Assembly: GCF_004121075.1 (NCBI RefSeq)
Contig: NZ_RHLN01000004.1
Coordinates: forward strand, 62,001-126,000
DNA from: Lutibacter sp. HS1-25
GTDB lineage: Bacteria > Bacteroidota > Bacteroidia > Flavobacteriales > Flavobacteriaceae
Direction of reading: 5' to 3'
Length of the DNA: 64,000 nt
Part shown: positions 3,535 to 28,892 of the stretch, one piece after another
Numbering within the stretch: position 1 is the first letter of the stretch
Layout: every line of letters begins with the position of its first letter
Translations under genes and position numbers: made by a program
Notes under the pieces: generated by a model
Databases searched by the model: none
What the model saw: only the letters and a program-made list of their open reading frames with translations
Told to the model about the DNA's origin: nothing

Positions 3535-3734
3535 AAATTCAAAAAATCACAATTTTAAAAGGTCAATAAATTAATTAAATGAAAATTGTCTTTTTAAAAT
3601 AACAATTATCAAAAATATTTTTAGTTTCAATTGAACTAAATAGCTAAAAAATTGAATAAATGAGATATTAATTTCATGTATTGTATATTATGTTTGATTC
3701 TTTTCAACATGCCAATATTCTTATTGAGAAATAA
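3535..3734. other. Intergenic stretch with eroded sulfatase sequence
   Basis: This AT-rich stretch has no convincing gene. From about 3681 it can be read, in the frame of the downstream repeat, as a diverged sulfatase tail: LY..FDSFQHANI against LYDLLNDPYEWTNI in the 5' gene. Homology therefore probably continues upstream of the well-conserved 144 bp at much lower identity. Confidence 0.5.
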
Positions 3735-12120: not shown

Positions 12121-13098
12121 TTATAATTTAATTAGTTTTTGTACACCTCTAACATTGTCTTCATTTGTGATTTCCAAGATGTAAACTCCAGAAATTAAAT
12201 CGCTAATATTGATTGTTTTTTCAACTTGAGTATTTACAGATTTAACAAGTTTACCAGTTACATTATAAATTTTATAAGAGAAATTACCAACTAAGTTGTT
12301 TATTGTAACATAAGATGTTGCAGGATTAGGAGCTATTGAAAATAAAGATTCGTCTATGTCTTTTGTTGACAATGTAGATGTTGGTTGAGGGTTAGATTGT
12401 GTAGGTAATTTAACGTTATCAACACCAAAATAGCTTGCTACAGGATTACCTGTTTGAGCAGTTCCAAAAACTTGCGCCCAAACAATTACAATGTATTTGT
12501 AAGTACCAGAAGCACCAAAGTCAACATTGATACTTCCAGAATTAGCCCAGCTATCTGAATGAGGTAAATGTGTATATGCTTTTAATTGTACAAAATCGAT
12601 ATCATTGTAATTAGCCGCATTGTTGTCACCAAAATCACCACTACCACTTGTCATAACAAAACTACCTGCTACTGTAGCATCAGTCATACCATAGATTTTG
12701 TACCCAAATCTATCATTTGTTGTAGAAGCATTGTCAAACGATGTATTGAAAAAGTAATCAAAATTTAAATCGTAAGCTCCTGATACAGAATTATCGCTGT
12801 TATTGTAAACATAAGCAAAAGCTCTGGCGAATTGGGTTTCACTAACTCTACTAACATATGCGCCAGAATTTCCGCCTGTAGTTTGAATATCAAAGTCTTT
12901 AGTGCCAAAACCTGCAATGCTAAACCACTTTCCATCACCAGCAGCAATAGCGCTTATATAACTATTATCTAACCCCGGATTTGATGCGTCTTGTGGTACA
13001 GTAACTAAAATTTCTGAAGAAAAATCTTCAGTAAAAGTTGATTGAGAATAAGCAACTAATGAAAATAAAGTTGCAATCATAAATGTAATTTTTTTCAT
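12121..13098 (-). CDS. Secreted jelly-roll-type module with T9SS type-A sorting domain
   Basis: The 325-residue protein has a signal peptide ending near residue 18 (AYSQ). Residues 20-235 form one domain of unknown family, and residues 255-325 are a T9SS sorting domain (FSIAPNPATSYVTI, YNVTGKLVKSV, ISGVYILEI). The first domain is clearly homologous to residues 575-745 of the GH49-like protein at 14102: DFDIQTTGGN against EFAIQSTGGN, ARAFAYVYNN against ARGFAYVYNN, GSGDFGDNNAANY against GSGAFGDNDATNY, and YFGVDNVKLP against IFGIDNVSIP. It lacks obvious catalytic residues, so a substrate-binding role is inferred. It is transcribed alone, from a promoter that shares an upstream element with the GH49-like and sulfatase/GH27 units. 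Confidence 0.7.
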   Translation of the reverse strand: MKKITFMIATLFSLVAYSQSTFTEDFSSEILVTVPQDASNPGLDNSYISAIAAGDGKWFSIAGFGTKDFDIQTTGGNSGAYVSRVSETQFARAFAYVYNNSDNSVSGAYDLNFDYFFNTSFDNASTTNDRFGYKIYGMTDATVAGSFVMTSGSGDFGDNNAANYNDIDFVQLKAYTHLPHSDSWANSGSINVDFGASGTYKYIVIVWAQVFGTAQTGNPVASYFGVDNVKLPTQSNPQPTSTLSTKDIDESLFSIAPNPATSYVTINNLVGNFSYKIYNVTGKLVKSVNTQVEKTINISDLISGVYILEITNEDNVRGVQKLIKL

Positions 13099-13129: not shown

Positions 13130-13189
13130 TAAAATTATAGATGTAAGTATAGTTTGGTTGGTTAAAATGACCATTTTTATTGCTCATTT
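13130..13189 (-). promoter_or_regulatory. Promoter with AAATGAGCAA element (motif A)
   Basis: On the minus strand AAATGAGCAA (13189-13180) is followed, 52 nt from its first base, by TAATTTTA (13137-13130), one mismatch from TAnnTTTG. The gene starts at 13098. The same element and spacing occur before 17527 and 25966. Confidence 0.6.
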
Positions 13190-13306
13190 GATTTTATACA
13201 AGCTGATAAGAATCAACAGTTTGTTAATTGTATATAAGAGGTTTTAAAAAACAAATTAGGTTTGGAATTATTTGTGTTTTCTTTCAAAACATTTAGCTTT
13301 TACATG

Positions 13307-13334
13307 AAAAATGCACCTACTTAAGGTGCATTTT
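13307..13334 (-). terminator. Intrinsic terminator
   Basis: AAAATGCACCT (13307-13317) pairs perfectly with AGGTGCATTTT (13324-13334). It lies about 50 bp beyond the stop of the minus-strand lipoprotein gene at 13385 and ends the GH49-like/lipoprotein unit. Confidence 0.85.
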
Positions 13335-13384
13335 GTTAAATTATTATTTTGAAATGTAAAAAGTATAGTACGAAGTTTTTTTAT

Positions 13385-14089
13385 TTAATCAGTTTTGAAA
13401 TTCCAAACCTGACCAACAGTGACACCGCCTTTTCCGTCTTTTACAACAACTTTCCAGTAATAGTTTTTTGAGGCTTCTAAGGTTGCGTTATAAGTTTTAG
13501 CACTTTGATTTTCTAAAACTTTAGTGGTTGGTGGATTTTCTGTTCCAAGATATACATCATAAGTTAAAACATCATTTACATCTACATCACTGGCATTCCA
13601 TTCTAATGTAGTTGTTGCCGTTTTGATAACGCTTGATGTAATTGGCGCAATCAACTCAGGTGAAAAAGGGATATGGTTGACAGTCCCTGTTCCTTCAGTA
13701 TAAAAACTATAAGTTGAAGAATAATTGCCTGATAAATTTTTACTGTCAACAGCTTTAACCCTCCAATAATAAGCTACGCCTTTTTCTAATGCTATAGATT
13801 TGGTAGTAGATTCAGTTGAAGATGTTTCTTCTATTTTGGTAAATTGATTGTCTTTTGAAATCTGAATTTGATAGGTTATTTTATCCTTTTCAGGATCTGT
13901 TGCAACATCCCATTTAAAAGCAACCGTATTGTCTATGCATAATTTATTATTTGTTGGCTCTAATAATAATGGGGTTGATGGTTCTGTATTTAATTTTTCA
14001 TCTGGTTGTGGTGGCGTATCATCACTACCGCCTCCGCCACAAGAGCATAGCATAAAACTCATTAAAAACCCAGCTATATATTTTTTCAT
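13385..14089 (-). CDS. Surface lipoprotein with two fibronectin type III domains
   Basis: The 234-residue protein has a lipoprotein signal (cysteine 17 in LCSC) followed by a Gly/Asp/Pro-rich linker. Two Fn3-like repeats follow, at about 40-132 and 142-234. Each starts with P..L..P and ends with a YYWRVKAVD or YYWKVVVKD strand and an FYTEG or NFKTD edge. There is no catalytic signature. It starts 12 bp after the GH49-like gene, so it is cotranscribed with it. Glycan capture or scaffolding at the outer membrane is the best guess, similar in layout to SusE-type accessory lipoproteins. Confidence 0.75.
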   Translation of the reverse strand: MKKYIAGFLMSFMLCSCGGGGSDDTPPQPDEKLNTEPSTPLLLEPTNNKLCIDNTVAFKWDVATDPEKDKITYQIQISKDNQFTKIEETSSTESTTKSIALEKGVAYYWRVKAVDSKNLSGNYSSTYSFYTEGTGTVNHIPFSPELIAPITSSVIKTATTTLEWNASDVDVNDVLTYDVYLGTENPPTTKVLENQSAKTYNATLEASKNYYWKVVVKDGKGGVTVGQVWNFKTD

Positions 14090-14101
14090 AATTGAAGTAT
14101 G

Positions 14102-17100
14102 TTATTTAATAATTATTTTTTTAATTAAAATTTCATCAACAGTAATTACTTTTAAAAAGTAAACTCCTGAATTAATTCCAGTTACATTTATTGGTTTTTG
14201 TAACGATTCAACTTGTTGCGAATAAACATTTTTCCCTGTAGTGTTTATTAATTGTAAGGTCACTTTTTGGTTGATGTTTAAACCTTCAACAAATACATTG
14301 AAAATGCCATTGCTTGGGTTTGGATATACATAAATACCATTGGTTAGTTCAACAGATTTATTGAAAACTCCCTCGCAGGTTACGGCCGTTTTAATGTTTA
14401 TTTTATCTCCATTTTTGACGTCTAATTCGAAAGTAGTATTTTGAGTTGTTAATTTTAACTCATCGTTAATAAGTACTTCAAAAGGAGCCGTTCCTTGTTC
14501 CATATCAACATAAACTTTATTTCCTTTAACACTTGTTTTAGCAGCAATTGTATTTCCAGCATTTACAGTTATTATGTAGCATTGTTTATAAGTCTTACCA
14601 GTAATACCTATACATATATCATAATCTCCGGGAGCTAAGTCTGAAATTGTTAAGTTATTATCTGTGAAATTGTAATTTACATTATTTACAATTGCAACAT
14701 AATCATATGATTCTTTGGCAGAAATGGAAATTTTACCATTAGATTTTGAAGGACAGGTCTCACTTGTAGCTGTAATTGTAAAGTTAGAACTATCTATTTT
14801 AAAAATTGGACAACCTTTTTCGTCAACAGCTGTTCCAATAGGTGTGTCTGGACATTGATCTAAATCATTTTCTATACCATCTTTGTCATCATCAATGGTA
14901 GAAAATTTTACCCAGTTAAGATTTAAAGGTGTAGCAGAATTGGCTATTCTTAAGGTTTGAAGCCCTTTTGAGATCTCAATATCGGCTCTTACAGTTTCCC
15001 AATTTTGTAATCCTCCTGTACTTTCACCAGTAATTGTTTTAAGTACTTTTGAATTGCTCATGATATCAATAGACCAATTAGAAGCTGCAGCAATTCTAAA
15101 TTCAGTTTTGTAGGTGTCAGTATTTGAAACATAAACTTCGTAGTCAACCCAATTACTTGCTGCAGTAAAGTTTATATTTTTATCTCCATCCACATCAGCA
15201 GTTATCTCACTTGTTGTTTCGTTGTTTCCTGTAAAATCTTCCGCCTGAACTAAAGATGGAATTTGTATTTTATCATCATATATACTTGGGTTTGTTTTCG
15301 GAATACTCACATTGTCTATACCAAAAATAGTAGTTGGTGATGCTTGAATAGTACCAAATGCACCAGAAAATACGATTACAATATAATCAAAATTACTTGC
15401 GCTTATAGTGTATTCTATTTTTGTCCATTCTTCGGCAACACCTAATTCTGTTGACCCTGCTAATTGGGTACCATCAATGCCTTCTAAATAGTTTGTGGCA
15501 TCGTTATCACCAAAAGCACCAGAACCTCCTGTTAGTCTAACATAACCATCAATGCCATTTTGCTCAGGATCTTTAATACCCCAAACTCTATAGGAAATTC
15601 GGTCACCTGTTAGCGGAGACTTCCAAAAATAATCAAACGACATATTTAGTACCCCAAAGGCATCTTGGTTTTTATTGTTATAAACATAAGCAAACCCTCT
15701 GGCATACTGTACATCTGATGTTCTGACTACATGTTCATCTTGATTGCCTCCTGTTGATTGAATGGCAAATTCTCCCTCAGTCGAATAACCTGCAGCAAAC
15801 CATTGTCCACCACCTGGTTTTATATCTTTTATATCATTTTGAACGATTCCTTTATTTACCGATGTAAGCGCGTTTTGTGTTAGGTGCGTTATTTGAACAT
15901 TATTAGAAAATGTTTCAATTTCTATTTCCGAGTTATCTGCATCGCTACCTTTGTCAAAAACAATGTTTTCTGTAGTACTTGTCTCTATATCAAAATAAAT
16001 AGAGCTGTTTTTGTCGTTTAGTTTTGTACCGTCAATGGTAATATTTTTAAATGTAACATTTTTAGTAAAGAAAGTTTTGTTTCCTGTAATGGTTGCATTT
16101 TCTTTTCCTTTAATTCTGTTTTTGTCAAACTGCTTATTAATAGTTATATTTTCTAGAACTAAATCACCCAAGTAACCCAAACTTTCTTCAGTTACTGGCA
16201 AATCATCAATTACCCCGTTACTTGATGAACGTGGTTTTAAATTTACAATACCAGGTATACGACCTTCAATTCTAATGTTTTTTATAGTTGTTGTTGTGTA
16301 TCCTGCATTGTAACTATAAGGTTTAAAATCAAGTGCGTTTTGAGATGCAACCAAACCGTTGTTGTTTCCTAAACCTGTCCATTCCGGATTGATAATGTCA
16401 ATATTGTCAAGAGTTGAAGCTCCTGCATTATAGCTACCCCAACCATAAGTTAAAATAGCACCATTGTGACCAGCCCATAGTATACAATCATGAACATAAA
16501 CATTAAAATTGTAAAAGAAATCATCAACAGCTCTAATAAAACTATTTTTTATTTCACTTTCTGCTCCAACTCTAATGGCATCATTATTTGCGTGCCATCC
16601 TAAAAATTTTAAGTTTGTAATGGTCGCATTGTTAGGCGCTACAATGCCATGTTGAGGAGATTCCATAATCATAATTCCATTAACTTCAGCATATTTGCCA
16701 AGTTCAACAATGTTTCCATAAGGCTTGTTTCCATTAGCATCTTGCCATTCATATTGTCTGCCAGATAAAATGCCGCGACCGTAAATTTTTTGATAGGTAT
16801 TGTTGTAATCCTGACGGCCAACGCGCCCTTCAACAAAAGCACCACCAGCTAAATACATTTTTTGACCGTTTTTTAATGAAATTAATCCACTATCATCTAT
16901 GATTCCTGCGTATTGATAATTTTTTAAATTATGATAACCTGGCTCAAAATAGATAATACTGGCGTTGTCAAGTTCTGTTGGAGTTGTTGAATTTGAATAT
17001 ACTACAACACCTGGATCTGTTTTGTTTGGTGCGTTTTCTTCAGGTGGATCCACAAAAATAGTAAGCATGTGTTTTATCCAGTTTGAAGGAGATGTTTTAT

Positions 17101-17527
17101 TTTCAGCATCCACAAAATTTACTGAAATATATTTACCACTATCGTTTATGCTAAAACTAACTTCATTGCTAGAAATGGTTGGTGTAATACCATAGCTTTT
17201 AGGCGAAATCTCAATATCTGTAGTTGGATTTCCAAACTTTTTTACAACTCTAAAAGTTAAATTAGAACCGCTTAATTTATCAAATGAAACGGATGCGAAA
17301 GAAAATGTTCTGCCCATTAACTGATTTGCTTGGTGATCATTTTCGTAAATAGCATTAGACATTAAGACTTCCAGTTTAATTTCTTCATCATTTCCATTTT
17401 TTACAAATACATCGTACTTGTCTGAAATTAAAGCCTGACCGTCGGCATTTGGCCAATCGTAATGTGTAAGTTGACCAAAAATTGTTGTTGTGGCTATAAA
17501 AAGTAAAAAGAATAATTTATGTTTCAT
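14102..17527 (-). CDS. Multimodular GH49-like enzyme with CBM6-like, TSP3 and T9SS domains
   Basis: The 1141-residue protein has a signal peptide ending near residue 19. Residues 20-170 are an N-terminal beta-sandwich. Residues 190-560 form a GH49-like beta-helix (YLAGGAFVEGRV, RGILSGRQYE) with candidate catalytic Asp316 (NNDAI) and Asp335-Asp336 (VDDFF). Residues 575-745 are the module that also exists alone in the protein at 12121. Residues 755-880 resemble CBM6 (QAEDF, NWVDYEVYV, LNWVKF). A thrombospondin type-3 repeat follows (DDDKDGIENDLDQCPDT, 879-895), then Ig-like sequence to 1065 and a T9SS sorting domain at 1066-1141 (VYPNPSNGIFNV). It is the largest carbohydrate enzyme here and likely surface-exposed. 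The promoter carries motif A. Confidence 0.75.
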   Translation of the reverse strand: MKHKLFFLLFIATTTIFGQLTHYDWPNADGQALISDKYDVFVKNGNDEEIKLEVLMSNAIYENDHQANQLMGRTFSFASVSFDKLSGSNLTFRVVKKFGNPTTDIEISPKSYGITPTISSNEVSFSINDSGKYISVNFVDAENKTSPSNWIKHMLTIFVDPPEENAPNKTDPGVVVYSNSTTPTELDNASIIYFEPGYHNLKNYQYAGIIDDSGLISLKNGQKMYLAGGAFVEGRVGRQDYNNTYQKIYGRGILSGRQYEWQDANGNKPYGNIVELGKYAEVNGIMIMESPQHGIVAPNNATITNLKFLGWHANNDAIRVGAESEIKNSFIRAVDDFFYNFNVYVHDCILWAGHNGAILTYGWGSYNAGASTLDNIDIINPEWTGLGNNNGLVASQNALDFKPYSYNAGYTTTTIKNIRIEGRIPGIVNLKPRSSSNGVIDDLPVTEESLGYLGDLVLENITINKQFDKNRIKGKENATITGNKTFFTKNVTFKNITIDGTKLNDKNSSIYFDIETSTTENIVFDKGSDADNSEIEIETFSNNVQITHLTQNALTSVNKGIVQNDIKDIKPGGGQWFAAGYSTEGEFAIQSTGGNQDEHVVRTSDVQYARGFAYVYNNKNQDAFGVLNMSFDYFWKSPLTGDRISYRVWGIKDPEQNGIDGYVRLTGGSGAFGDNDATNYLEGIDGTQLAGSTELGVAEEWTKIEYTISASNFDYIVIVFSGAFGTIQASPTTIFGIDNVSIPKTNPSIYDDKIQIPSLVQAEDFTGNNETTSEITADVDGDKNINFTAASNWVDYEVYVSNTDTYKTEFRIAAASNWSIDIMSNSKVLKTITGESTGGLQNWETVRADIEISKGLQTLRIANSATPLNLNWVKFSTIDDDKDGIENDLDQCPDTPIGTAVDEKGCPIFKIDSSNFTITATSETCPSKSNGKISISAKESYDYVAIVNNVNYNFTDNNLTISDLAPGDYDICIGITGKTYKQCYIITVNAGNTIAAKTSVKGNKVYVDMEQGTAPFEVLINDELKLTTQNTTFELDVKNGDKINIKTAVTCEGVFNKSVELTNGIYVYPNPSNGIFNVFVEGLNINQKVTLQLINTTGKNVYSQQVESLQKPINVTGINSGVYFLKVITVDEILIKKIIIK

Positions 17528-17550
17528 GTTATCAAATATTTAAACTATTG

Positions 17551-17610
17551 CAAGTATACTTCACCTTTTCAACTACAAATAGCTATAATGTGCTTTTGTG
17601 TTGCTCATTT
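17551..17610 (-). promoter_or_regulatory. Promoter with AAATGAGCAA element (motif A)
   Basis: Minus-strand AAATGAGCAACACAAAAG starts at 17610, and TATACTTG (17558-17551), one mismatch from TAnnTTTG, lies 52 nt from its first base. The GH49-like gene starts at 17527. Confidence 0.65.
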
Positions 17611-17704
17611 GTTCTAACTAAATAATTTAACTTGTAATAGATATTTTATTCAAAGGGTTTAGTTCTTGTTTAATATGTTGATTGGTAGTTGGTTTATCTA
17701 AAAA

Positions 17705-17738
17705 AAAAGCCAAGTTTAAAATGATAAACTTGACTTTT
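17705..17738 (-). terminator. Intrinsic terminator
   Basis: AAAAGCCAAGTTTA (17705-17718) pairs with TAAACTTGACTTTT (17725-17738) with one wobble pair. A long A-run at 17701-17708 reads as T on the minus strand. It ends the four-gene operon whose last stop is at 17760. Confidence 0.85.
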
Positions 17739-17759
17739 ACATTCAAAACAACAAAAAAC

Positions 17760-19211
17760 TTATTTTGGTGAACCAGCAAATATTTTAACTGATTTTATGC
17801 TTGATTTTGTAGGTAATTCATCACTAAATTTTAAATAAATCGAGTGAGTTCCTTTTGCATTTCTTAATAATGTTTCAGTAAGTCCATCTTTTTTAATAAC
17901 AAAAGTTCCAACTAATGCTCCGTTTGGTTTGTCTAATCTAATTTCGCATTTTAAAGGTTCTTTAATCCCTTTCATTTCAATGGCAGCATAATAATATCCG
18001 GTTCCTAAATTGATATTTTCAAATTTTAAGGTTGAATTTGTTACTTCTGTATCTTTAAGAGCTAAGTTAATTTCAAAAGGTTGGTCTACTATTACGGGTT
18101 CTACACCGGTTAAAGTTTGTTGTACAGGTCTAATAATACCCGATTCATCATAGGAAATTTGATCTACACAAACAGAGCGTTGTGTCCAAGTTCCTGGGCC
18201 TTTAAATTCGTCTTGTCGCCAAGATGAGAGGGCAGAAGTATGGTAAAATAAATAATCGTTTCCGTGGTATTCAACTATTCCACCATGGTTTGATTGGTAC
18301 AAGCGCCAAGGAACATAATTTTTACCAGGTAATTTAGGTCCTTCATTTACATTTACACCCAGTTCGTAATTTAAAATTCCTTTATATTCAAAAGGACCAA
18401 GCGGATGATCGCTTACACCATAATCCAATCTCGATTTTTTACGGTGTAAATCATCAGGGTTTTCAGGATCTATTGGTTTGTCGTAATGAGAGTGATAAGA
18501 AAGGTAGTATTTATTGTCTTTTTTATCCATCCAAATAGCTTCCATAAAACGCTCATCATCTACTTCCATTTTAATTGGCTCACCATCCAATTCCATCATA
18601 TTATCTTTTAATTTTGCGCCGTAATGAGTTCCGTAGTATAAATATTTTTCTCCATCATCATCTATAAAAACAGCAGGATCTATACCTTGAGTGCCTTTAA
18701 TTTTAGGGTTAATTACTGTGAATTTTTTGTCTGGAGCGTCGCTAACAGCAACTCCGGTGTAAGCGATTGTTTTTCTGGTTTTTTCGTCGTAACCACCTTC
18801 TTTGTACAATATTCTTACAGGAAAATACAAATAGTATTTGCCTTCATAATAAACCATATCTGGAGCCCATAGCGCCCAATCTTCACCTTCTGGTTCAACA
18901 TTAGAGCCTATGACATCATAAATGTTTAAAACTTCTCCGTGATCGGTCCAGTTAACCATATCTTTTGAAGAAAATGTATGGTATTTATGCATAGTACTAT
19001 AGCCGCCTCCGTCTTCGTGGTCAACCGATGTTACCATCCAAACACGACCATCGGGCATTACGTGTGGTGAGGCATCAGCGGTGTACATATGTTTTATTAC
19101 TGGATTTCCATATGGATAAGGCTTTGTATTGATATTTGGCTTGATTTGAGAAAAAGCAGCAATTGAAATCAAGATACAAAAAATAGTGGATATTATTTTT
19201 GAATAACGCAT
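17760..19211 (-). CDS. GH43-type glycosidase with C-terminal beta-sandwich (tandem copy 2)
   Basis: The 483-residue protein has a signal peptide ending near residue 22. The propeller spans about 30-360, with Asp46 in TADASPH (base), WAPDMVY, Asp178 in QGIDPAVFIDDDG (modulator) and Glu224 in FMEAIWM (acid). Residues 370-483 form a small beta-sandwich resembling CBM6-type modules in this group. It is closely related along its whole length to the neighbour at 19233, and both end with an AGSPK tail. It starts 21 bp after that gene and is the last gene of the sulfatase operon. The enzyme is probably exo-acting; the sugar is not determinable from sequence. Confidence 0.8.
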   Translation of the reverse strand: MRYSKIISTIFCILISIAAFSQIKPNINTKPYPYGNPVIKHMYTADASPHVMPDGRVWMVTSVDHEDGGGYSTMHKYHTFSSKDMVNWTDHGEVLNIYDVIGSNVEPEGEDWALWAPDMVYYEGKYYLYFPVRILYKEGGYDEKTRKTIAYTGVAVSDAPDKKFTVINPKIKGTQGIDPAVFIDDDGEKYLYYGTHYGAKLKDNMMELDGEPIKMEVDDERFMEAIWMDKKDNKYYLSYHSHYDKPIDPENPDDLHRKKSRLDYGVSDHPLGPFEYKGILNYELGVNVNEGPKLPGKNYVPWRLYQSNHGGIVEYHGNDYLFYHTSALSSWRQDEFKGPGTWTQRSVCVDQISYDESGIIRPVQQTLTGVEPVIVDQPFEINLALKDTEVTNSTLKFENINLGTGYYYAAIEMKGIKEPLKCEIRLDKPNGALVGTFVIKKDGLTETLLRNAKGTHSIYLKFSDELPTKSSIKSVKIFAGSPK

Positions 19212-19232
19212 TTTGTTGTTTTTTTAAAGTTA

Positions 19233-20729
19233 TTATTGGTGTTCGATTTTTTTAGGTGAACCGGCTAAAAAATGAGGTTCGGAAATGATTGTTTGTTCAG
19301 AGTTTTCATTTATAAAGACTAATACAATATGATGTATGCCATTTGCTTCTCTTAAAAAAGTATCAGCATATCCTTTGTTTAATGTGCTGTTATTATTGTC
19401 TAAAAGTATGGTGCCCATTAAATAGCCATTTACACTATCTTTTCTAATTTCTATTTTTCCTTTTGAAGGAGTTTTTAATAATTTTACACCAAAATAATAA
19501 TAACCTGATCCTAAGTCGATATTTTTAAATGAAATGGAACTGGTGTTTTTAATTGAAATAATTTTTTCTTTTGAAGTTTTTAAGCCTTCAACATGAAAAG
19601 CTTTTTTTGGTTTAAGTTGAATGCTGAAAGGCTGATTGATAGTAATTTTTTTAACCCCTTCAATAGTTTGTTGAACAGGTATAATAGTTCCATCTTCATT
19701 GTAATTTAATGCATCAATACAAACCGATCTTTGTGTCCAAGTTCCTTCACCATTAAATTCATCTTGTCTCCATGATGATAGTGCTGAAGTATGGTAAAAA
19801 AGGTATTCTTGTCCGTGATACTCAACAACGCCTCCGTGGTTAGATTGTGTCAATCTCCAAGGAACATAATTATGATCTTTTAATTTTGGACCATTTACAA
19901 CATTAGAACCCAATTCAAAATTCATAGTTCCTTGATAGGTTAACGGACCTTTTGGTGAAGTACCAATGCTGTAATCAAGATTTGATTTTAAACGATTAGG
20001 ATCGTTAGGGTTTTCTGGAGAGACCACATTGTTATATTTTGTGTGGTAATTAAAGTAATACACACCTTTGCGTTTATGCATCCAAGCGGCTTCCATAAAA
20101 TTATTAGCACCAATATCAAGTTTAAACATGTTGCCTTTTATTTCGCGCATATTAGCTTCTAGAACACCCATTAATTGTTGGTTCCAATATAAATAGGCGA
20201 TACCATCATCATCAATAAAAACGGCAGGATCTAGACCAGCTTTTTCAACACCAGTCATACGAGGATTGGTAATTTTAAATCGTTTGTACATACTATCACT
20301 TTCTGCTACTGCAACATAGCGGTCTATGGAGCCGTCAGACAAAACATTGCGCATTGGAAAATATAAGTAATAAACACCATTTCTATAAACAATGTCTGGA
20401 GCCCATATAGCCCAATCTTCATTTTTAGGTACATCAAAATCATCAATTCCTAAAATTTCACCGTGATCTATCCAAGTAACCATATCGTCGGTTGAAAATG
20501 CATGTATAGCATGCATGGTTGCATAACCACCACCATTTTCATGGTCAACTGAAGTCACCATCCATAATCGCCCGTCGGGCATTACTTTTGGAGCCGCATC
20601 AGCAGTGTACATATGCGTAATCACAGGGTTTCCGTAAGGATAAGGTTTTGTGTTTGTATTTTTCTTTTGAGAAAAGGATACACTTACACAAAAAATGGAG
20701 AGGAAAAATATTAAAGTTAATTTATTCAT
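19233..20729 (-). CDS. GH43-type glycosidase with C-terminal beta-sandwich (tandem copy 1)
   Basis: The 498-residue protein has a signal peptide ending near residue 20. Candidate catalytic residues are Asp44 (TADAAPK), Asp167 (GLDPAVFIDDDG) and Glu213 (FMEAAWM). Strong matches to the neighbour at 17760 include PYPYGNPVI.HMYTADA, VPWRL.QSNHGG and FYHTSALSSWRQDEF. The C-terminal domain (about 375-498) is somewhat longer than in the neighbour. The start overlaps the stop of the upstream mutarotase-like gene by 4 bp (ATGA), so translation is probably coupled. The pair looks like a tandem duplication that diverged, perhaps to accept differently decorated sugars. Confidence 0.8.
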   Translation of the reverse strand: MNKLTLIFFLSIFCVSVSFSQKKNTNTKPYPYGNPVITHMYTADAAPKVMPDGRLWMVTSVDHENGGGYATMHAIHAFSTDDMVTWIDHGEILGIDDFDVPKNEDWAIWAPDIVYRNGVYYLYFPMRNVLSDGSIDRYVAVAESDSMYKRFKITNPRMTGVEKAGLDPAVFIDDDGIAYLYWNQQLMGVLEANMREIKGNMFKLDIGANNFMEAAWMHKRKGVYYFNYHTKYNNVVSPENPNDPNRLKSNLDYSIGTSPKGPLTYQGTMNFELGSNVVNGPKLKDHNYVPWRLTQSNHGGVVEYHGQEYLFYHTSALSSWRQDEFNGEGTWTQRSVCIDALNYNEDGTIIPVQQTIEGVKKITINQPFSIQLKPKKAFHVEGLKTSKEKIISIKNTSSISFKNIDLGSGYYYFGVKLLKTPSKGKIEIRKDSVNGYLMGTILLDNNNSTLNKGYADTFLREANGIHHIVLVFINENSEQTIISEPHFLAGSPKKIEHQ

Positions 20730-21706
20730 TTTAAGTTTTTAACAATTGTTTTTATGTTGTTTAAGTCTAATTTTTTATCTTTTGGATATGCATTTTTCAA
20801 AAGCCACCAATCTTCAGTAAAACTTACAATTTCTCCTGGCAAAATAGTTTCTATTGGGCCTATTGGTTCAATCTCACATTTTTCATTTTTATAATACCAA
20901 ATAGATACCTGATTGCTTAAAACATCTCCATAATTCACATTTTTATCAGCCTCAAATTTTTTAATAAAAAGCAAGTCATCGGTTGAATTATACGCCAACC
21001 AACCTTGGTTGCTATCCATTACAAATTTTGGCTGACTAGGAGTTCCCAACATTTCTAAAATACCATCACGAACTCTTAAATTTTCTTCTTCTTTTGGGTT
21101 GAAATCTATAAATGTTGTTTGGTGTTGATACATTGCATAACCTTTTGGCAATCTGCTATTAGGGTTTAATGGTACCAAACAAATACCACCACCTTTGGCA
21201 AAAGTTCTGCTCCAGTGGGCGTATGTCTGAATTGTTTTACTTGTGTTTTTTATATGTTGAATACATTTTAAATGTGAAGAATCTTCAGCTAAAATAAAAT
21301 CTCTAATTAATTGCACTTCCAATAAAGTATCTATCTGACTTGTTAATCTAGCTGAATTTTTACCCGTGATTTCACCATTCCATTTATTGTGAAAACTGTT
21401 TCTGTTGGGTGTTGTTTGAGCAGGGCCAATGTCAAATCGGCCACCACTTACTTCAAACTTATCCATTCCAGGTTCCCAAGTTATACCATTTAATAAAGGG
21501 TTTTCAAACAAAATATTTTTGCCATTTAATTCATAACTTAAAATTCTACCTCCAACATTTGGGTCTAAAATAACTTTTACAATTGGGTTGCTTAATTCAA
21601 TACAATTGTTGTAGCCAAAGGCATTTACTTTTTTAATTACAACTTGTGAAAAACCGATGTTACATGTAAGAAATACGATGAATATGAAGGTTAAATATTT
21701 TTTCAT
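20726..21706 (-). CDS. Secreted DUF4380-like / galactose-mutarotase-fold protein
   Basis: The 326-residue protein has a signal peptide ending near residue 20 (GFSQ). The rest has an aldose-epimerase-like beta pattern: ELSNPIVKVILDPNVGGRILSYELNGKNIL at the start, then ISGRFDIGP-like, HIKNTSKTIQTYAHWSRT and a late VSFTEDWWLL. This fits DUF4380-type mutarotase-fold proteins. Its activity is unknown; converting anomers of released sugars or binding them are both possible. It lies between a sulfatase (3 bp) and a GH43 gene (4-bp overlap), and this tight coupling implies a shared pathway. Confidence 0.6.
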   Translation of the reverse strand: MKKYLTFIFIVFLTCNIGFSQVVIKKVNAFGYNNCIELSNPIVKVILDPNVGGRILSYELNGKNILFENPLLNGITWEPGMDKFEVSGGRFDIGPAQTTPNRNSFHNKWNGEITGKNSARLTSQIDTLLEVQLIRDFILAEDSSHLKCIQHIKNTSKTIQTYAHWSRTFAKGGGICLVPLNPNSRLPKGYAMYQHQTTFIDFNPKEEENLRVRDGILEMLGTPSQPKFVMDSNQGWLAYNSTDDLLFIKKFEADKNVNYGDVLSNQVSIWYYKNEKCEIEPIGPIETILPGEIVSFTEDWWLLKNAYPKDKKLDLNNIKTIVKNLK

Positions 21707-21709
21707 TTT

Positions 21710-23218
21710 TTACTTTTTAATAGCAACCTTTGGAGCATTGTGAATTTCCATATTTTTAACCGTATCAAATTCTTCATTTACACAACGTTCTCCCCAACGT
21801 TCATACATAAACTTTAATGAATATATGTTTTGTGGTTCACTTCCTTTATCACCATAGGTTTCTGCCCAATTGTTTAATATGGTTCGTAGTTTATTTATTT
21901 CAGAGCTATAATTAGCATCGTACGCTAAGTTGTTGATTTCAAACGGATCGTTTTCTAAATCGTACAATTCTTCTTCGGGTTTTGTTGGTAACCAGTATTT
22001 TGCCTGAACGTCATTTAATTTCCCTTCATCAAACATTTTTTTAATATCTACAAATTCAGCTCTCCTGTCTCTATAAGCAGGCTGCGTGTAAGAGCGGTTT
22101 GGCATATAATTTTTAATGTATTTGTATTTATCAGTTCTTACAGCTCTAATTCGGTCTATAGAAAAATCACAACGGTCGCGGGTAGCAATAATAAAATCCC
22201 TTTTAAAATTGCTGTCAAACATATTTTGACCTTCCATATATTTAGGAATATTTATACCAGCCAAGGCCAATGACGAGGTGCCAATATCAATACCACTTAC
22301 CAAATCTTCACGAACTGTTTGTTGTTTAATTTGAGAATCTTCACCAAAATAGGCAACAATTAAAGGAATTTGAATACCGCCATCATATAAAAATTGTTTG
22401 TGACGAATGCCTTTGTAACCGTGATCAGCAAAAAAGAACACATAGGTATTGTTTAGCAATCCTTTTTCTTTAAGTTGATTTATAATTTCTTCAACTTCAA
22501 GATCTGTTGCGCGTGCAGCATCATAATGACGAGCAAAATCTTCGTGAACTGAAGGAATATTTGGATAATATGGAGGTAATTGAACCAAACTTCTATCTAT
22601 TGGTGTGATTTTATCTTTAATTTTATCATAAACCTGTATCAATCCTAATTTACCTCCTTCGAGTTGAATTTGTCCAAAAAATGGCTGGTCTGGTGATAAT
22701 TTTCCTAACCAATCACCTGTTCCTGAAAAAGTATACCAAAAATCAGTTTGGATATCGTCTTCATATAATTTTTTGCGGTCGTAAATAAAATTGTAATCAT
22801 CTTTACCATGGTTAAAAGTTTGATAACCATTTTCTTTAAAAACTTCAGGAATGGTTTTTACACCCTCAGGTAAAAAAATGGCATCTTCAACGGTTCTTGA
22901 TGAATGGTGATTGTGAAGGCCAAAAGTAGTAGGCATAGTGCTGGTAATAAATGCTGAACGGGCAGCGGAGCAAACAGGGGCTGGGGTGTAAGCATTTTTA
23001 AACAAAACACCACTTTTAGCCAAATTGTCTAAAGTTGGAGTAGGGTTGATAGTTTCTCCATAACAGCTAAAAACAGGATTTAAATCTTCAACAACAATCC
23101 ATAAAATGTTTGGTTGTTTAGATTTGTTTTCAACTGTTTTAACGTTTTTATTTGCGTTGCTACAGCCTACAATGTTAATTATTAAAATAATTAATGCGGT
23201 TTTATATAAATTGTTCAT
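21710..23218 (-). CDS. S1-family sulfatase lipoprotein
   Basis: The 502-residue protein has a lipoprotein signal with cysteine 19 (IVGC). Metal-site residues lie in VEDLNP (Glu44-Asp45, where many sulfatases have Asp-Asp) and in FFADHGYKG. The formylglycine motif is Cys83-Ser-Ala-Ala-Arg87. The C-terminal ELYDLENDPFEINNL is intact. The VEDL start resembles the heparan N-sulfatase-like subfamily group, but the substrate here is presumably an algal sulfate ester. It is the first gene of a minus-strand operon (sulfatase, mutarotase-like, GH43, GH43) with 3-21 bp spacing or overlap. Confidence 0.9.
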   Translation of the reverse strand: MNNLYKTALIILIINIVGCSNANKNVKTVENKSKQPNILWIVVEDLNPVFSCYGETINPTPTLDNLAKSGVLFKNAYTPAPVCSAARSAFITSTMPTTFGLHNHHSSRTVEDAIFLPEGVKTIPEVFKENGYQTFNHGKDDYNFIYDRKKLYEDDIQTDFWYTFSGTGDWLGKLSPDQPFFGQIQLEGGKLGLIQVYDKIKDKITPIDRSLVQLPPYYPNIPSVHEDFARHYDAARATDLEVEEIINQLKEKGLLNNTYVFFFADHGYKGIRHKQFLYDGGIQIPLIVAYFGEDSQIKQQTVREDLVSGIDIGTSSLALAGINIPKYMEGQNMFDSNFKRDFIIATRDRCDFSIDRIRAVRTDKYKYIKNYMPNRSYTQPAYRDRRAEFVDIKKMFDEGKLNDVQAKYWLPTKPEEELYDLENDPFEINNLAYDANYSSEINKLRTILNNWAETYGDKGSEPQNIYSLKFMYERWGERCVNEEFDTVKNMEIHNAPKVAIKK

Positions 23219-23240
23219 CTTAAAAAATAATTAGTACATC

Positions 23241-23248
23241 AAAATTAG
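23241..23248 (-). promoter_or_regulatory. Promoter -7 element for the sulfatase operon
   Basis: TAATTTTG on the minus strand is a perfect TAnnTTTG, 23 bp before the sulfatase start at 23218. No clear -33 TTTG lies upstream, so activation by a regulator is possible. Confidence 0.5.
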
Positions 23249-23283
23249 TTCTACAACTGTTTTTGAAGTTGCTTAAATGGGTA

Positions 23284-23291
23284 TAGTTTTG
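23284..23291 (+). promoter_or_regulatory. Possible promoter -7 element for plus-strand genes
   Basis: TAGTTTTG matches TAnnTTTG, with TTTG at 23263-23266 17 bp upstream. The start codon of the GH43-like gene is about 130 bp further on, so the leader would be long. Confidence 0.3.
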
Positions 23292-23420
23292 GTTTTTTTG
23301 TAAAATTCTAGTACTGTTTGGTTGTAATTAATAGCAAAATGTACTTTTTAGCTAAGAGTTTGCATTAAAAAGCAATGGGTTCTTGTAAGTGTTTATTTTT
23401 TTTGTAAAAACATCTTTTGC

Positions 23421-24476
23421 ATGAATAAAAGACTGATAACATTGTTGAGGCCTTTGCTTGTTTTGAGCATTTTTTTAGCCTGTGACACCAAGCAAAAATC
23501 CGTTTCAGAATTAAAATGGGTAAATCCAATTTCTAATGGCATAAATAAATATGGGATGAAAGATTTCTTTATTTTTTATGAAGATGAAACCTTTTATTTA
23601 GTAGGTACAGAATATGCTGATCCTTTTAAAGGATATTTAGGGCCAAATTTATATAAATCAGATAATTTAAGTAGTTGGAGTACAGATTTTAAACTAATAA
23701 ATACAAATCTAATTCCCGAAAATGCCTGGTATAAAGATGGTTGGTTTGCCCCAGAAATAGTGAAAATAAAAAACAAGTATTATTTTACATTTAATAACAG
23801 AAATAACGCCGAAAACCCATATCAAAAATTAGGTTTTGGAATTGCAGTTAGCGATTCGTTAAAGGGAGAATATGATATAATAAATAAAAATGCGCCTATA
23901 GTTTTAAGTAATCACGGGAGTTTGGTTGTTGGTGAAAACGAAGATGAAGTTTTTGTTGTGTACGAAATGGATAGTCGATTTTATATAGCTGAAGTTGATT
24001 TGGAACAAGGAAATTTAAAAAGCAAACCAATAGAGTTTTTAGGGCCAGAAACACTTCAGGATAACTTTAAATATTTAGATGCACCTCAAATTACAAAAAT
24101 AGGCGATACCTATCATTTGATGTTTTCTCAATTTTATGGTGGGTATGTAGTGAAAATATATCATATGACAGCCAAGCACCCTACTGAGACTTGGCATTGG
24201 GATACAAATAATCCGATCTATACATTTTTAGAAGAGGAAGCTGATGAGGTGGTGAAAAATAAATATCCAACACCTCACGGTTATGCTCCGCCTACACAGG
24301 TGGTTTTTAGTAATCAGTTATTTAAAGGGGAGTTTGGACAGTATTTTATTGCGTATCACAGTTCTGAAAAATATTCAGAGCCTTATTTATGTGTTGAACC
24401 TGTTTCAATTGAAAATGAAAAATTGTTGATTCCAACAGCAAAAGATATACAACAAAAAATAAGTTTAAATGATTAG
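23421..24476 (+). CDS. GH43-like propeller lipoprotein
   Basis: The 351-residue protein has a lipoprotein signal with cysteine 21 (FLAC). Propeller strands are visible in MKDFFIFYEDETFYLVGTE, WFAPEIVKIKNKYYFTF and YHLMFSQFYGG. Asp48 could be the base, but there is no DP motif, no GIDP and no EGP in the usual places. It is thus a remote GH43/GH32/GH117-fold protein that may be inactive or may use other residues. It overlaps the following GH49-like gene by 8 bp, so the two are translated together. It diverges from the sulfatase operon across a 202-bp promoter region. Confidence 0.6.
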   Translation: MNKRLITLLRPLLVLSIFLACDTKQKSVSELKWVNPISNGINKYGMKDFFIFYEDETFYLVGTEYADPFKGYLGPNLYKSDNLSSWSTDFKLINTNLIPENAWYKDGWFAPEIVKIKNKYYFTFNNRNNAENPYQKLGFGIAVSDSLKGEYDIINKNAPIVLSNHGSLVVGENEDEVFVVYEMDSRFYIAEVDLEQGNLKSKPIEFLGPETLQDNFKYLDAPQITKIGDTYHLMFSQFYGGYVVKIYHMTAKHPTETWHWDTNNPIYTFLEEEADEVVKNKYPTPHGYAPPTQVVFSNQLFKGEFGQYFIAYHSSEKYSEPYLCVEPVSIENEKLLIPTAKDIQQKISLND

Positions 24477-25851
24477 AGTTTTAATTTTTTTGGTAATAAT
24501 TCTAAGGTGTTTTTTTGTAAATGCTCAAATAGTCACTTATCAACCAAGTTCAAATATAAGTAATGATAATCCCTATATATTTTCTTCACCATATTATAAA
24601 GTTCAAATAAGTCAGAATAATGAAATTAAAGATGTTTTTGTGTATGCAATGAATGCAATGCATATTACAAATAATTCTAAATCAACTTCTTGGGTTAATT
24701 TTTCTTTTGAAGGAACCATAAAAGTAAAAGTTACGGTTTTGAAAAAAAATGTTGATTTTGCACAAGTATTGCCGAGAAAGGCAAATATCAGCGTTGCTAT
24801 TATTGGAGAAAATTCAATTGAATTTGAAATTTCAAAAGATGGATATTATTCGGTTGAATTTGAAAAAGGAATTTTTATAGAACACCCCTTGCTCATTTTT
24901 GCAAATCCTTTAGAAAAGGATGTTCCCAAAAAAAATGATCCCAACGTTATTTATTTTGAAGCTGGATATCACGAAATAGGAGATAAATATATGATTCCTT
25001 CAAATAAAACAGTCTATTTAGAAGGAGGTGCCTATTTAAAAGGACAATTTTTTGCTGAGAATGCTGAAAACATCAAAATCAAAGGACGTGGAATTTTATC
25101 GGGCGAAGCTTATAAAGCAAGAACTCACAATCACATGATTCGTGTTGATGATTCTGAAAATATTGAAATTGAAGGGGTTACAATTATCCATGCGCCAAGA
25201 TATATGATTTCTTCTAGTGGAATAAAACATCACTTTCATCATATAAAAATGATGGGTTGGTGGTTTAGTACAGATGGTATTTCATCAGGTGAAAATAGTT
25301 TAATTGAAAATTGTTTTTTTAAAGTAAATGATGATGCTGTTAAGTTATACAGAAACAATATGGAGGTGAAAAATTGTGTTATTTGGCAATTAGAAAATGG
25401 AGCGGCTTTTATGATAAGCTGGAATGGAAGTGCCAATTTTGGTAATGTTAAAGTGCAAAATATTGATATTATTAGGGTTGAACATCATTGGGATAACGAA
25501 AATTTAGCGGTGTTTGCAGCCATACATGGAAGTAAAGCACATATTAGTAATTTTTTAGTAAAAGATGTAAGAATAGACAATGCTAATTGGCGCATGTTTC
25601 ATTTAGTAACGCGTCCAAATAGGTGGGGTAAATGGGATCAAAATTTAGGTTCTCTTTCCAATTTTACATTTAAAAATATAACATATTATGGTGAGCAAAA
25701 GATACCAAGCTTACTAATGGGACACGATGTAAAGCATCCTGTTTATAATATAACTTTTGAAAATATTACAATAAATGGCAAAAAGATGTTGATTGAAAAT
25801 GACTTTTTAATTGTAGACAAAAAAACAACGTCAAACATTAAAATAAAGTAG
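24469..25851 (+). CDS. GH49-like beta-helix glycosidase (single-domain form)
   Basis: The 460-residue protein has a signal peptide ending near residue 20 (VNAQ). Of the three relatives in the window this one is closest to the classical GH49 pattern: HPLLIFANPLE, FEAGYH, VYLEGGAYLKGQF, GRGILSGEAY, WWFSTDG (Asp269), VNDDAVKLY (Asp288-Asp289) and IWQLENG. All three Asp equivalent to the dextranase catalytic residues are present. Unlike its relatives it has no T9SS domain, so it is probably periplasmic, which suggests work on imported oligosaccharides. The start lies inside the end of the GH43-like gene. Confidence 0.75.
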   Translation: MIRVLIFLVIILRCFFVNAQIVTYQPSSNISNDNPYIFSSPYYKVQISQNNEIKDVFVYAMNAMHITNNSKSTSWVNFSFEGTIKVKVTVLKKNVDFAQVLPRKANISVAIIGENSIEFEISKDGYYSVEFEKGIFIEHPLLIFANPLEKDVPKKNDPNVIYFEAGYHEIGDKYMIPSNKTVYLEGGAYLKGQFFAENAENIKIKGRGILSGEAYKARTHNHMIRVDDSENIEIEGVTIIHAPRYMISSSGIKHHFHHIKMMGWWFSTDGISSGENSLIENCFFKVNDDAVKLYRNNMEVKNCVIWQLENGAAFMISWNGSANFGNVKVQNIDIIRVEHHWDNENLAVFAAIHGSKAHISNFLVKDVRIDNANWRMFHLVTRPNRWGKWDQNLGSLSNFTFKNITYYGEQKIPSLLMGHDVKHPVYNITFENITINGKKMLIENDFLIVDKKTTSNIKIK

Positions 25852-25880
25852 AATTGAGCATTTTTCTGTTGATTTTATAT

Positions 25881-25940
25881 AAATGAGCAACAATAAAGAA
25901 CAAATCAGAAGTTTTTTTGCGCAAGCAATCTTTATTTTTG
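25881..25940 (+). promoter_or_regulatory. Promoter with AAATGAGCAA element (motif A)
   Basis: AAATGAGCAACAATAAAG starts at 25881, and a perfect -7 box TATTTTTG lies at 25933-25940, 52 nt from the first base. The sulfatase start is at 25966. Confidence 0.65.
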
Positions 25941-25965: not shown

Positions 25966-27453
25966 ATGAAATATCAAAATTTTATGAAAGCAGCCGTTAT
26001 TGTACTTTTAGTATTGGTAGGTTGTAAAGAAAATCCAAAGAAAGAAGTTGCTTTAAAAGAAGCTGCTAATGAAAAACCAAATATCGTTTTTATTCTTGTA
26101 GATGATATGGGGTATGGTGATTTAGGTTGTTATGGTCAAGAAACACTAACAACTCCAAATATTGATAAGCTAGCGGCTGAAGGAATGCGGTTTACACAGC
26201 ATTATGCCGGATCTACAGTTTGTGCTCCATCTAGAGCGTCATTGTTAACAGGAAAACATACAGGACATACTTCTGTAAGAGGAAATGAGCCTGAAGGACA
26301 ATTGTTAGAAGATGATGAAATAACAATTGCAAAAATGTTGAATACAGAAGGTTATAAAAGTGCTGTAATTGGAAAATGGGGTGTTGGAAATCATCCAGAA
26401 CCAAATGATCCTGCTCGTAATGGTTTTGAACATGCTTATGGTTATGTTAATATGTGGCATGCGCACAATTTCTATCCTGAATTTTTATATAGAGATGGTG
26501 TAAAAGAAATTCTAAAAGGAAATAAAACAGACTGGTCTTATGATTACGAAAAAGGTATGAAAGAAGGTACTGGTGTAGCTAAAGTTAAAGAAACCTATGC
26601 AATTGATAAATTGCAAGAAGATGCATTAAAATTTATAGCAGATAATAAAAGCAATCCTTTCTTTTTATATTACTGTTTAAATATACCACACGCAAATAAT
26701 GAAGCAGGATATTTTACAGGAGATGGTATGGAAGTACCTAGTTATGGTGAGTTCGAAAGCAAAGATTGGCCAAATCCAGAAAAAGGTTTTGCTTCAACCA
26801 TTAGAATAATTGATAATAGTGTTGCCGAAATTGAAGCTAAATTAAATGAATTGGGTATTGCAGAAAATACAATTGTTGTTTTTGTAAGTGATAATGGTCC
26901 TCACAATGAAGGTGGCCATGTATCTAAATTCTTTGATAGTAACGGAATATATCGTGGTGATAAAAGAGATTTATACGAAGGAGGAATTAGAGTGCCTTTA
27001 ATTGTAAAATGGCCTGGAAAAATTAAACCAGGAAGTGTTGCTAATAATCCGGTAGCTACATGGGATTTTATGTCAACTTTTGCTGAAGTTGTTGGTTTAG
27101 ATACACCTGAAAATACAGATGGAGTTTCATTTTTACCTACCCTGTTAGGAAATACTGAAGAGCAAAAAGAACATGAGTACCTATATTGGGCATTCTATGA
27201 GCAAGGAGGAAGACAGGCAATTAGAGTTGGTGATTGGAAGTATATTAAATTAAATGTAAGAGACCATACAGTTGATGTTGTTGAAGAATTATACAATATA
27301 AAATTAGATCCTTCAGAAACTAATAATGTTATTAAGGAAAATCCTGAAAAAGTTACAGAATTAAGTAGAGCTATGGAAAATGCTCATACAGAACATCGTA
27401 TGTTGTCTCTTTTTTCTGATGAGATCAGTGCCGAATCAAAATTTCAAGAATAA
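25966..27453 (+). CDS. S1-family arylsulfatase-type lipoprotein
   Basis: The 495-residue protein has a lipoprotein signal with cysteine 20 (LVGC). Metal ligands are in ILVDDMGYGD (Asp46-Asp47) and FVSDNGPH. The formylglycine motif is Cys86-Ala-Pro-Ser-Arg90, followed by ASLLTGKHTG. The C-terminal ELYNIKLDPSETNNV is intact. It is a complete, canonical arylsulfatase-A-like enzyme. The stop overlaps the start of the GH27 gene by one base (TAATG), so sulfate removal and alpha-galactoside cleavage are probably coupled steps. Confidence 0.92.
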   Translation: MKYQNFMKAAVIVLLVLVGCKENPKKEVALKEAANEKPNIVFILVDDMGYGDLGCYGQETLTTPNIDKLAAEGMRFTQHYAGSTVCAPSRASLLTGKHTGHTSVRGNEPEGQLLEDDEITIAKMLNTEGYKSAVIGKWGVGNHPEPNDPARNGFEHAYGYVNMWHAHNFYPEFLYRDGVKEILKGNKTDWSYDYEKGMKEGTGVAKVKETYAIDKLQEDALKFIADNKSNPFFLYYCLNIPHANNEAGYFTGDGMEVPSYGEFESKDWPNPEKGFASTIRIIDNSVAEIEAKLNELGIAENTIVVFVSDNGPHNEGGHVSKFFDSNGIYRGDKRDLYEGGIRVPLIVKWPGKIKPGSVANNPVATWDFMSTFAEVVGLDTPENTDGVSFLPTLLGNTEEQKEHEYLYWAFYEQGGRQAIRVGDWKYIKLNVRDHTVDVVEELYNIKLDPSETNNVIKENPEKVTELSRAMENAHTEHRMLSLFSDEISAESKFQE

Positions 27454-28892
27454 TGAAAATAGCTAAAATAATACATGCTTTTGTATGCTTAACTGTTATA
27501 TCCTGTAATACAAAGCCAAGTCAAGCAGAATCAAGTACTGTAAAAGTCGATGAGCAAAATGTTCTTGAACTAGTAGCGCAAACACCACCAATGGGTTGGA
27601 ATAGTTTTGATGCTTATGATTGCAGAATTAATGAGCAAGAATTTAAGGCTACAGTTGATTATATGGCAGAAAATCTGTTAGAGTACGGTTGGGAATATGC
27701 AGTAATAGATTATATATGGTGGCATCCAGAGCCTGGAAATTGGGATACCCCACGAAGAAAAGGACACCCAAATATTAGATTTAATGAAGACGGTAGTCCA
27801 TTATATCCAGAATATACAACTATGGATGAATATGGTCGTTTATTGCCTTCGGTTGAGCGTTTCCCTTCTGCAGCAGGGGGGAAAGGATTCAAACCTATTT
27901 CTGACTATGTACATGCAAAAGGATTGAAATTCGGGATTCATATTATGCGTGGAATACATAGAGTAGCAACTTTTAATGATACTAAAATTATGGGAAGTAC
28001 AGCTACAGCAAAAGACATTGCAGAACCTTTTGATACTTGTGGCTGGTGCAATCATATGTATGGAGTTGATGCAACAAAAGACGGTGCACAAGAATATTAT
28101 AATTCACTATTCAATTTATATGCTCAATGGGGAGTGGATTTTATAAAAGCTGATGATACAATGTTTCACCCGTACCATGCAGGTGAAATTGAAATGATTC
28201 ACAAAGCAATAGCACAGTGTGGTAGACCTATGGTCTTAAGTTTGTCTTGTGGAGAAGCACCATTGTCAAGAGCAGATCATTTGGTTGAAAATTCAAATAT
28301 GTGGAGAGTTTCGGGAGATTTTTGGGATAATTGGGAATCTTTAGAACATAATTTCGACTTATTAAATTCTTGGTCTCCTTTTATTGGTAAAGGTCATTGG
28401 CCAGATGGCGATATGCTACCTATTGGGAAAATTTCACTTCAAGACAGGCCGCATGGTGTTGAAAGAATGTCAAATTTTACAGTTCCAGAACACTACACAT
28501 TAATGAGTTTATGGTCAATTGCAAAATCACCTTTAATGATGGGGGGTGATTTATTAACAACTCCTGAAAGTACTATGCAGTTTTTAAAAAATGAAGAAGT
28601 ACTTTATGTAAATCAACAAAGTGTAGATAATAGACAAGTAAAGAAAGAAAATGGACAGGCAATATGGATTGCTACAGACCCTGCAAATGGAGATAAATTT
28701 GTAGCTCTTTTTAATTTAAGTGAAAAAGAGCGCGATGTAAAATTTCGATTAGAAGATGAAGCATTAAGAGGTAGTTTTAAAGTCCGTGATTTATGGGAGA
28801 AAAAAGATGTTGGTGTTGTAAAAGATGAACTTTCTGCAAAAATCGAAAGTCATGGAGCAAAAATATTTCGCCTAACCAGTATAATAGAATAG
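27453..28892 (+). CDS. GH27 alpha-galactosidase-like lipoprotein
   Basis: The 479-residue protein has a lipoprotein signal with cysteine 18 (VISC). Residues 44-390 are a GH27 TIM barrel: TPPMGWNSFDAY at the start, VIDYIWW, GLKFGIHIMRG, the nucleophile region WGVDFIKADD (Asp234) and the acid/base region WRVSGDFWDNW (Asp289). Residues 395-479 are the C-terminal antiparallel domain (WIATDPANGDKFVALFNL). GH27 enzymes release alpha-galactose or alpha-N-acetylgalactosamine, and some act on beta-L-arabinopyranosides. Together with the sulfatase this suggests a sulfated galactose-type terminal unit. A strong terminator follows. Confidence 0.9.
   Translation: MKIAKIIHAFVCLTVISCNTKPSQAESSTVKVDEQNVLELVAQTPPMGWNSFDAYDCRINEQEFKATVDYMAENLLEYGWEYAVIDYIWWHPEPGNWDTPRRKGHPNIRFNEDGSPLYPEYTTMDEYGRLLPSVERFPSAAGGKGFKPISDYVHAKGLKFGIHIMRGIHRVATFNDTKIMGSTATAKDIAEPFDTCGWCNHMYGVDATKDGAQEYYNSLFNLYAQWGVDFIKADDTMFHPYHAGEIEMIHKAIAQCGRPMVLSLSCGEAPLSRADHLVENSNMWRVSGDFWDNWESLEHNFDLLNSWSPFIGKGHWPDGDMLPIGKISLQDRPHGVERMSNFTVPEHYTLMSLWSIAKSPLMMGGDLLTTPESTMQFLKNEEVLYVNQQSVDNRQVKKENGQAIWIATDPANGDKFVALFNLSEKERDVKFRLEDEALRGSFKVRDLWEKKDVGVVKDELSAKIESHGAKIFRLTSIIE

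Follow-up and report, generated by a model that had tools for sequence, protein, structure and literature searches.

A 21-bp direct repeat at a fixed distance from the −7 box marks a probable hybrid two-component system regulon in Lutibacter sp. HS1-25

For hybrid two-component systems (HTCS) of Bacteroides thetaiotaomicron, the predicted motifs consist of direct repeats that lie 21 bp apart on average; the sites, of 12–16 bp in the examples given there, precede operons for SusC/D and for glycan enzymes close to an HTCS gene (Ravcheev et al. 2013, PMC3878776). The arabinan HTCS BT0366 governs an arabinose-polymer locus, and in the sections of those reports that treat it, BT0366 gave no shift of an araM promoter fragment while AraR, of the NrtR family, acts on the arabinose genes (PMC5061871, PMC4666351). 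Promoters of the Bacteroidota have the −7 consensus TAnnTTTG, as summarized in PMC7366714. Here we analyse a promoter element of Lutibacter sp. HS1-25 (genome of 4.18 Mb) that was noticed in a 64,000-nt stretch of contig C4 (C4:62001-126000), which we call the window. Like the Bacteroides sites as they are outlined in PMC3878776, the element is a direct repeat upstream of SusC/D and enzyme operons; in contrast to them, it belongs to a flavobacterial locus, where it serves about 13 promoters and lies 52 nt from a −7 box. We consider it probable that the element is an activator site read by an HTCS and controls about 13 units for a sulfated arabinose-containing glycan. Our literature search met no description of this regulon in any title or opening abstract that it found.

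The most visible part of the element is a 10-mer, AAATGAGCAA. A sequence-only reading of the window had pointed to three copies upstream of genes, each followed by a TAnnTTTG-like box at one and the same distance. All three were confirmed: the copies lie at 13180-13189 and 17601-17610 on the minus strand and at 25881-25890 on the plus strand, and in 3/3 the box begins at +52 from the first base (TAATTTTA at 13130-13137, TATACTTG at 17551-17558 and TATTTTTG at 25933-25940). These predicted −7 boxes match 5 or 6 of the 6 bases of TAnnTTTG. They fit the Bacteroidota consensus as PMC7366714 gives it, but here they are locked to the operator. Such boxes occupy 113 of the 9597 positions of C4 upstream regions; if independence is assumed, the chance of one common offset (any of 60) is ∼1e-4 for three of three sites, in line with the earlier judgement that identical spacing is unlikely by chance, and ∼1e-6 for four of four.

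The 10-mer alone is nonspecific because most of its copies are coding. The window contains four copies against 0.43 expected from shuffles, and the genome contains 48 (two for the reversed pattern), 40 of them within open reading frames (ORFs; at least 80 aa) and eight outside. A box with at least 5/6 bases stands at +52 of only four of the 48: the three reported copies and C4:11108 (6/6). With one mismatch at most, the genome holds the composite 10-mer + N42 + TAnnTTTG at these same four positions only, each of them on C4. Two mismatches are found at 26 places, and C4:51060, 91 nt upstream of an ORF, is the sole one of these on C4. The genome scan proposed by the sequence-only reading favours the composite and not the bare 10-mer; what is specific is a direct repeat of greater length. 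Two copies were excluded as operators. One is the fourth window copy, 24898(−), which lies within an ORF and lacks a box. The other, C4:11201, is a second AAATGAGCAA in the same leader as the C4:11108 copy, 93 nt past it and 60 nt upstream of the start codon, with no box at +52.

In the full operator, a half-site of some 14 bp, approximately GNNCAWWWNAGCAA, is repeated directly at a distance of 21 bp, and the operator ends 21 nt upstream of the −7 box. Five sites, the four composite places and C4:51060, share a second block that reads, counted from the first A, A16 x G18 xx C21 A22 xxxx A27 G28, with G28 in four of the five. Within the repeat structure, the 10-mer covers the last bases of half-site 1 (A-R-C-x-A) and some of its core. 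A 13-bp repeat (AWGNNCA), seen first in the five sites, was given up for the 21-bp repeat, which the shift analysis favours: the second half of a nine-site matrix, slid upstream along that matrix, scores +2.95 at shift 21 and −4.5 or less at all other shifts from 6 to 47. When half-site matrices were built with one site left out, −21 was the best non-zero offset in 9/9 C4 sites. Beyond C4, it was the best in two of five sites (11916 on contig C12 and 267951 in Leeuwenhoekiella parthenopeia) and the second or third in the remaining three. All of 12 sites carry C8, A10 and A22, and C21 and A27 are each present in 11. The sequence between operator and box is little conserved. The earlier idea of an activator-like element upstream of these genes is supported, in the form of the direct repeat rather than the 10-mer.

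A five-site matrix, of which the box formed part, ranked four unseen C4 sites sixth to ninth (23106, 40088, 37050 and 85299). All four are intergenic, correctly oriented and 73–91 nt upstream of a start. Of 276200 oriented positions, 2360 are intergenic and lie 60–160 nt upstream of a start. Among 300 column-shuffled matrices, 277 placed none of their top four matches in such places and 23 placed one. When the operator was scored alone, just 23106 and 40088 reached the top 25 on C4. The element is nearly restricted to one locus, and a nine-site model run on the whole genome returned its nine sites and nothing more under E 0.09. A tenth C4 site, 65637, scores poorly in genome-wide searches (E 5 with nine sites, 0.08 with 12). 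We then considered the 33 unit-like starts on C4, defined by a gap of at least 70 nt upstream of an ORF; four of the 33 are artefacts that arise where neighbouring ORFs overlap. A 12-site matrix scored ten of them at 19.5 or more and 23 at 6.5 or less; nine of those ten had been used to build it. In all, we count 13 operators in the genome: ten on C4, five of them inside the window, and three on C12. The spacing to the box is 52 nt in 12 and 53 nt in one (C12:5971); for five of the C4 sites this needs care, since the matrix that found them included the box. The five strong sites outside C4 (three on C12, two in L. parthenopeia) were selected by operator score alone, and in all five the best box within +30 to +100 falls at 52 or 53.

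The three C12 sites stand around a candidate regulator gene. AraC-type regulators were covered across the genome: there are 15 HTH_18 matches, 14 of them over the cut-off, and four lie in open frames of more than 1300 aa, among which the full domain scan was made for the C12 gene. This gene (C12:6124-10389, 1421 aa) encodes Reg_prop, Y_Y_Y, HisKA, HATPase, receiver and HTH_18 domains, which confirms it as an HTCS. By operator score alone, the three best places in its 18-kb region are 11916(+), 5971(−) and 11851(−), all upstream sites, with scores of 21.4, 17.4 and 16.6; around the three remaining genes of HTCS size, the top scores are 15.0, 14.2 and 11.8. Site 11916(+) precedes a GH2 gene (box at 52) and 11851(−) an aldose epimerase gene (box at 52). 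Site 5971(−) precedes a unit of genes for a 510-aa protein, an SSF protein, a GH27-type protein and a transketolase (box at 53). A weak operator-like stretch, C12:10517(−), lies 128 nt upstream of the HTCS gene itself with TACATTTG at +52; it has two mismatches in the composite scan and an operator score of 6.2, and HTCS autoregulation through it is possible. Since direct repeats ∼21 bp apart are the published form of predicted HTCS sites, and since the operators stand before SusC/D and enzyme operons of one locus, the set is most likely an HTCS regulon. The C12 HTCS is the best candidate for its regulator, ahead of the AraC and LytTR genes of the window.

The operator recurs with the locus in another genus. 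A relative of the SusC protein was found in L. parthenopeia (56% identity) and another in an uncultured Bacteroidetes (43%), the latter with no operator site. In L. parthenopeia C1:258-313 kb, 32 of 33 ORFs have their best match on C4 or C12 at 40–76%, not all one-to-one, and the HTCS ortholog lies within this syntenic locus (1117 bits; next 500). The 12-site model, run on the whole L. parthenopeia genome, placed its best two matches inside the locus, at 267951 (E 3.3e-4, box offset 52) and at 294760 (E 0.006, box offset 53). The first precedes the ortholog of the window sulfatase 25966 and the second the SusC ortholog; the fourth-best match, 312959 (E 0.43), is also inside the locus. At C1:267951-267972 the repeat is preceded, at a distance of 21 bp, by a third half-site, which hints at a triple array.

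We also ran the nine-site model on 60 genomes (our own, 36 congeners and 23 others of the order), and the 59 others gave five weak matches. Four of these lie in loci without a convincing operator and box. The fifth, in G044, looks like a terminator hairpin before an ORF and was rejected as an operator. In a sample of 397 genomes of the family, the GH27-type protein was found in our genome and, as a 47% match, in one other (G321) only; at E 1e-230 the HTCS was found, in a sample of 395 genomes of the order, in our genome only.

Several observations weigh against this interpretation. The rejected G044 match has E 5e-4 and box TATTTTTG at +52, making it as strong as the Leeuwenhoekiella match; for this reason it is the position of the two L. 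parthenopeia matches that carries weight, and not their E-value alone. The third-best match in that genome (E 0.04) lies outside the locus. The orthologs of C4 51151 and 85218 have no clear site there, the ortholog of 14102-17527 has only a weak one, and the best box falls at +52/53 in one of three weaker candidates. On C4, the five-site scores of 37050, 85299 and 65637 (14.3, 14.2 and 13.7) lie below the average top match of shuffled matrices (15.0; the maximum is 23.5), and these sites are supported by their position and box, not by their score. At three of the five sites beyond C4, a second offset other than −21 comes first (C12:5971, −50; C12:11851, −29; L. parthenopeia 294760, −13). Finally, the HTCS gene is on another contig than C4. 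Both C12 and C4 end within a transketolase gene, and fragments of a second, near-identical copy lie on C27 and C139; this pair of genes interrupts the assembly at four contig ends. With two copies, the join of C12 to C4 is one of two possible pairings, and it is likely but not proven.

We weighed three other explanations of the sites. The strongest, which we nonetheless think unlikely, is that another AraC-type regulator reads them, notably the AraC-type protein encoded at 48130-49275 on the minus strand of the window, which has a hydrophobic N-terminal part and is probably membrane-bound. It is on C4 too, it has HTH_18 and HTH_AraC domains, direct repeats can be bound by AraC-type dimers, and the genome has 15 HTH_18 matches. 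Yet the operator sites surround the HTCS gene, whereas the units near the AraC gene (42800-45877, 46021, its own start, 50342 and 56191) have no operator within 300 nt upstream, with scores of 4.7 or less. In addition, the Leeuwenhoekiella syntenic locus includes the HTCS ortholog, but this AraC protein is the best match of none of its ORFs. Far less probable is that the blocks are remnants of a duplicated upstream region and not selected sites. Sulfatase, GH43 and GH27-type genes do recur in the locus, and their duplication with upstream DNA is conceivable; however, the likeness is limited to operator and box, the spacer is little conserved, the genes downstream are not alike, and another genus has the site at protein identities of 56% (SusC) and 68% (sulfatase). 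Chance, an A/T-rich 10-mer beside a common box, could account for the many, mostly coding copies of the 10-mer alone but is practically dismissed by the specificity of the composite, the prediction of unseen sites, the shuffled-matrix control and the presence across genera.

Taken together, these results favour the C12 HTCS as the reader of the site. We infer binding, activation and an inducer as follows. A periplasmic breakdown product of the glycan would be sensed and lead to phosphorylation of the HTCS, and a dimer of its AraC-type DNA-binding domain would read the 21-bp direct repeat, AAATGAGCAA being the most visible part of the binding site. The site is kept 52, sometimes 53, nt from the −7 box; at this fixed distance, the second half-site would adjoin the −33 region, as expected of an activator that touches RNA polymerase. 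About 13 units in a locus of roughly 100 kb would then be switched on, with SusC/D uptake, sulfatases and GH43, GH27-type, GH49-like and GH2 enzymes. L-arabinose catabolism would also be switched on if C12 and C4 join. The sequence-only reading had seen an activator site of fixed geometry that ties three units into one regulon. The unseen C4 sites, the sites around the HTCS gene and the conservation in another genus argue for both proposals, with the regulon enlarged from three promoters to about 13.

The genes served by the operators suggest the substrate. C4 begins with genes for transketolase, transaldolase, an FGGY kinase, a class II aldolase, an SSF carrier and arabinose isomerase, and many sulfatases and GH43 and GH27-type enzymes follow beyond them, pointing to a sulfated arabinose-containing glycan. 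(The Pfam scan took in C4 ORFs other than, for example, 18693-20207, 59906-62309, 123979-126534 and those after 130383.) The operator at 17580-17616 on the minus strand (C4:79610) serves the unit of 14102-17527, encoding a 1141-aa protein with CBM6/35 and a type IX secretion (T9SS) tail, and 13385-14089, with Ig_Rha78A_N and SusE matches. For the 1141-aa protein, the PDB gives a dextranase (E 6e-13) and an isopullulanase as matches, both of which we take to be GH49, and a GH49-like enzyme had been proposed; the resemblance holds, but no Pfam GH49 match is among those listed. The operator at 13159-13195 on the minus strand (C4:75189) serves 12121-13098, a 325-aa secreted protein with a T9SS tail. 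It is similar to residues 538-747 of the 1141-aa protein (39% identity), as expected of the free-standing module described before. The supposed sulfatase–GH27 pair is likewise backed by domain matches: the plus-strand operator at 25875-25911 (C4:87881) precedes a sulfatase (25966-27453) and a Melibiase_2 protein (27453-28892), Melibiase_2 being presumably GH27.

Two further window operators came from the matrices. One, at 23269-23305 on the minus strand (C4:85299), lies 81 nt upstream of the unit 23218-17760, which encodes a sulfatase, a 326-aa protein and two GH43 enzymes; its box TAATTTTG is at 23240-23247. The other is the weaker plus-strand site at 3631-3667 (C4:65637, score 19.5), 254 nt upstream of the GH43 ORF 3891-4961, with box TATGTTTG at 3689-3696, exactly +52 of window position 3637. 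Elsewhere on C4, site 40088 precedes the SusC gene 40179. With the 12-site matrix on C4 starts, window units 5285, 7206, 9780 and 23421 have no operator of their own. Neither has the second block of SusC/D genes, past ∼32 kb of the window, beside which a 2492-aa subtilase-like protein (32356-39834) is encoded. The gene for a LytTR protein with a hydrophobic N-terminal part (441-1205) is situated between units of this locus and has no operator at its start, and 56191-59718 encodes a 1175-aa protein that fuses sulfatase and rhamnosidase (Bac_rhamnosid6H) parts. A sigma-70 promoter scan gave 67 matches against 66.6 in shuffles, and a terminator scan 8 against 6.8.

The arrangement differs from BT0366 and AraR, as far as PMC5061871 and PMC4666351 set them out, in that an HTCS-type site here heads a unit probably running into the arabinose genes. 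A profile for NrtR_WHD proteins had no match in this genome; the same profile was positive in 4 of 14 genomes, Bacteroides ihuae included. It is a tentative idea, which we hold as possible without thinking it the likelier outcome, that one HTCS directly drives both the dismantling of the glycan, outside the cell and in the periplasm, and the cytoplasmic L-arabinose pathway through a rigid module at 13 promoters, replacing the HTCS and AraR tiers of Bacteroides.

Judged by its DNA, the regulon is most likely a new example of the known HTCS type, with a well-defined promoter geometry. Operator and promoter geometry are now testable for an HTCS outside Bacteroides. The sites help to delimit a very large sulfated-glycan locus from its DNA, with sites on units from window 3891 to 28892 and none on the second SusC/D block. 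They also offer a 13-member natural series of one operator–promoter module for the study of an AraC-type activator and the Bacteroidota sigma factor.

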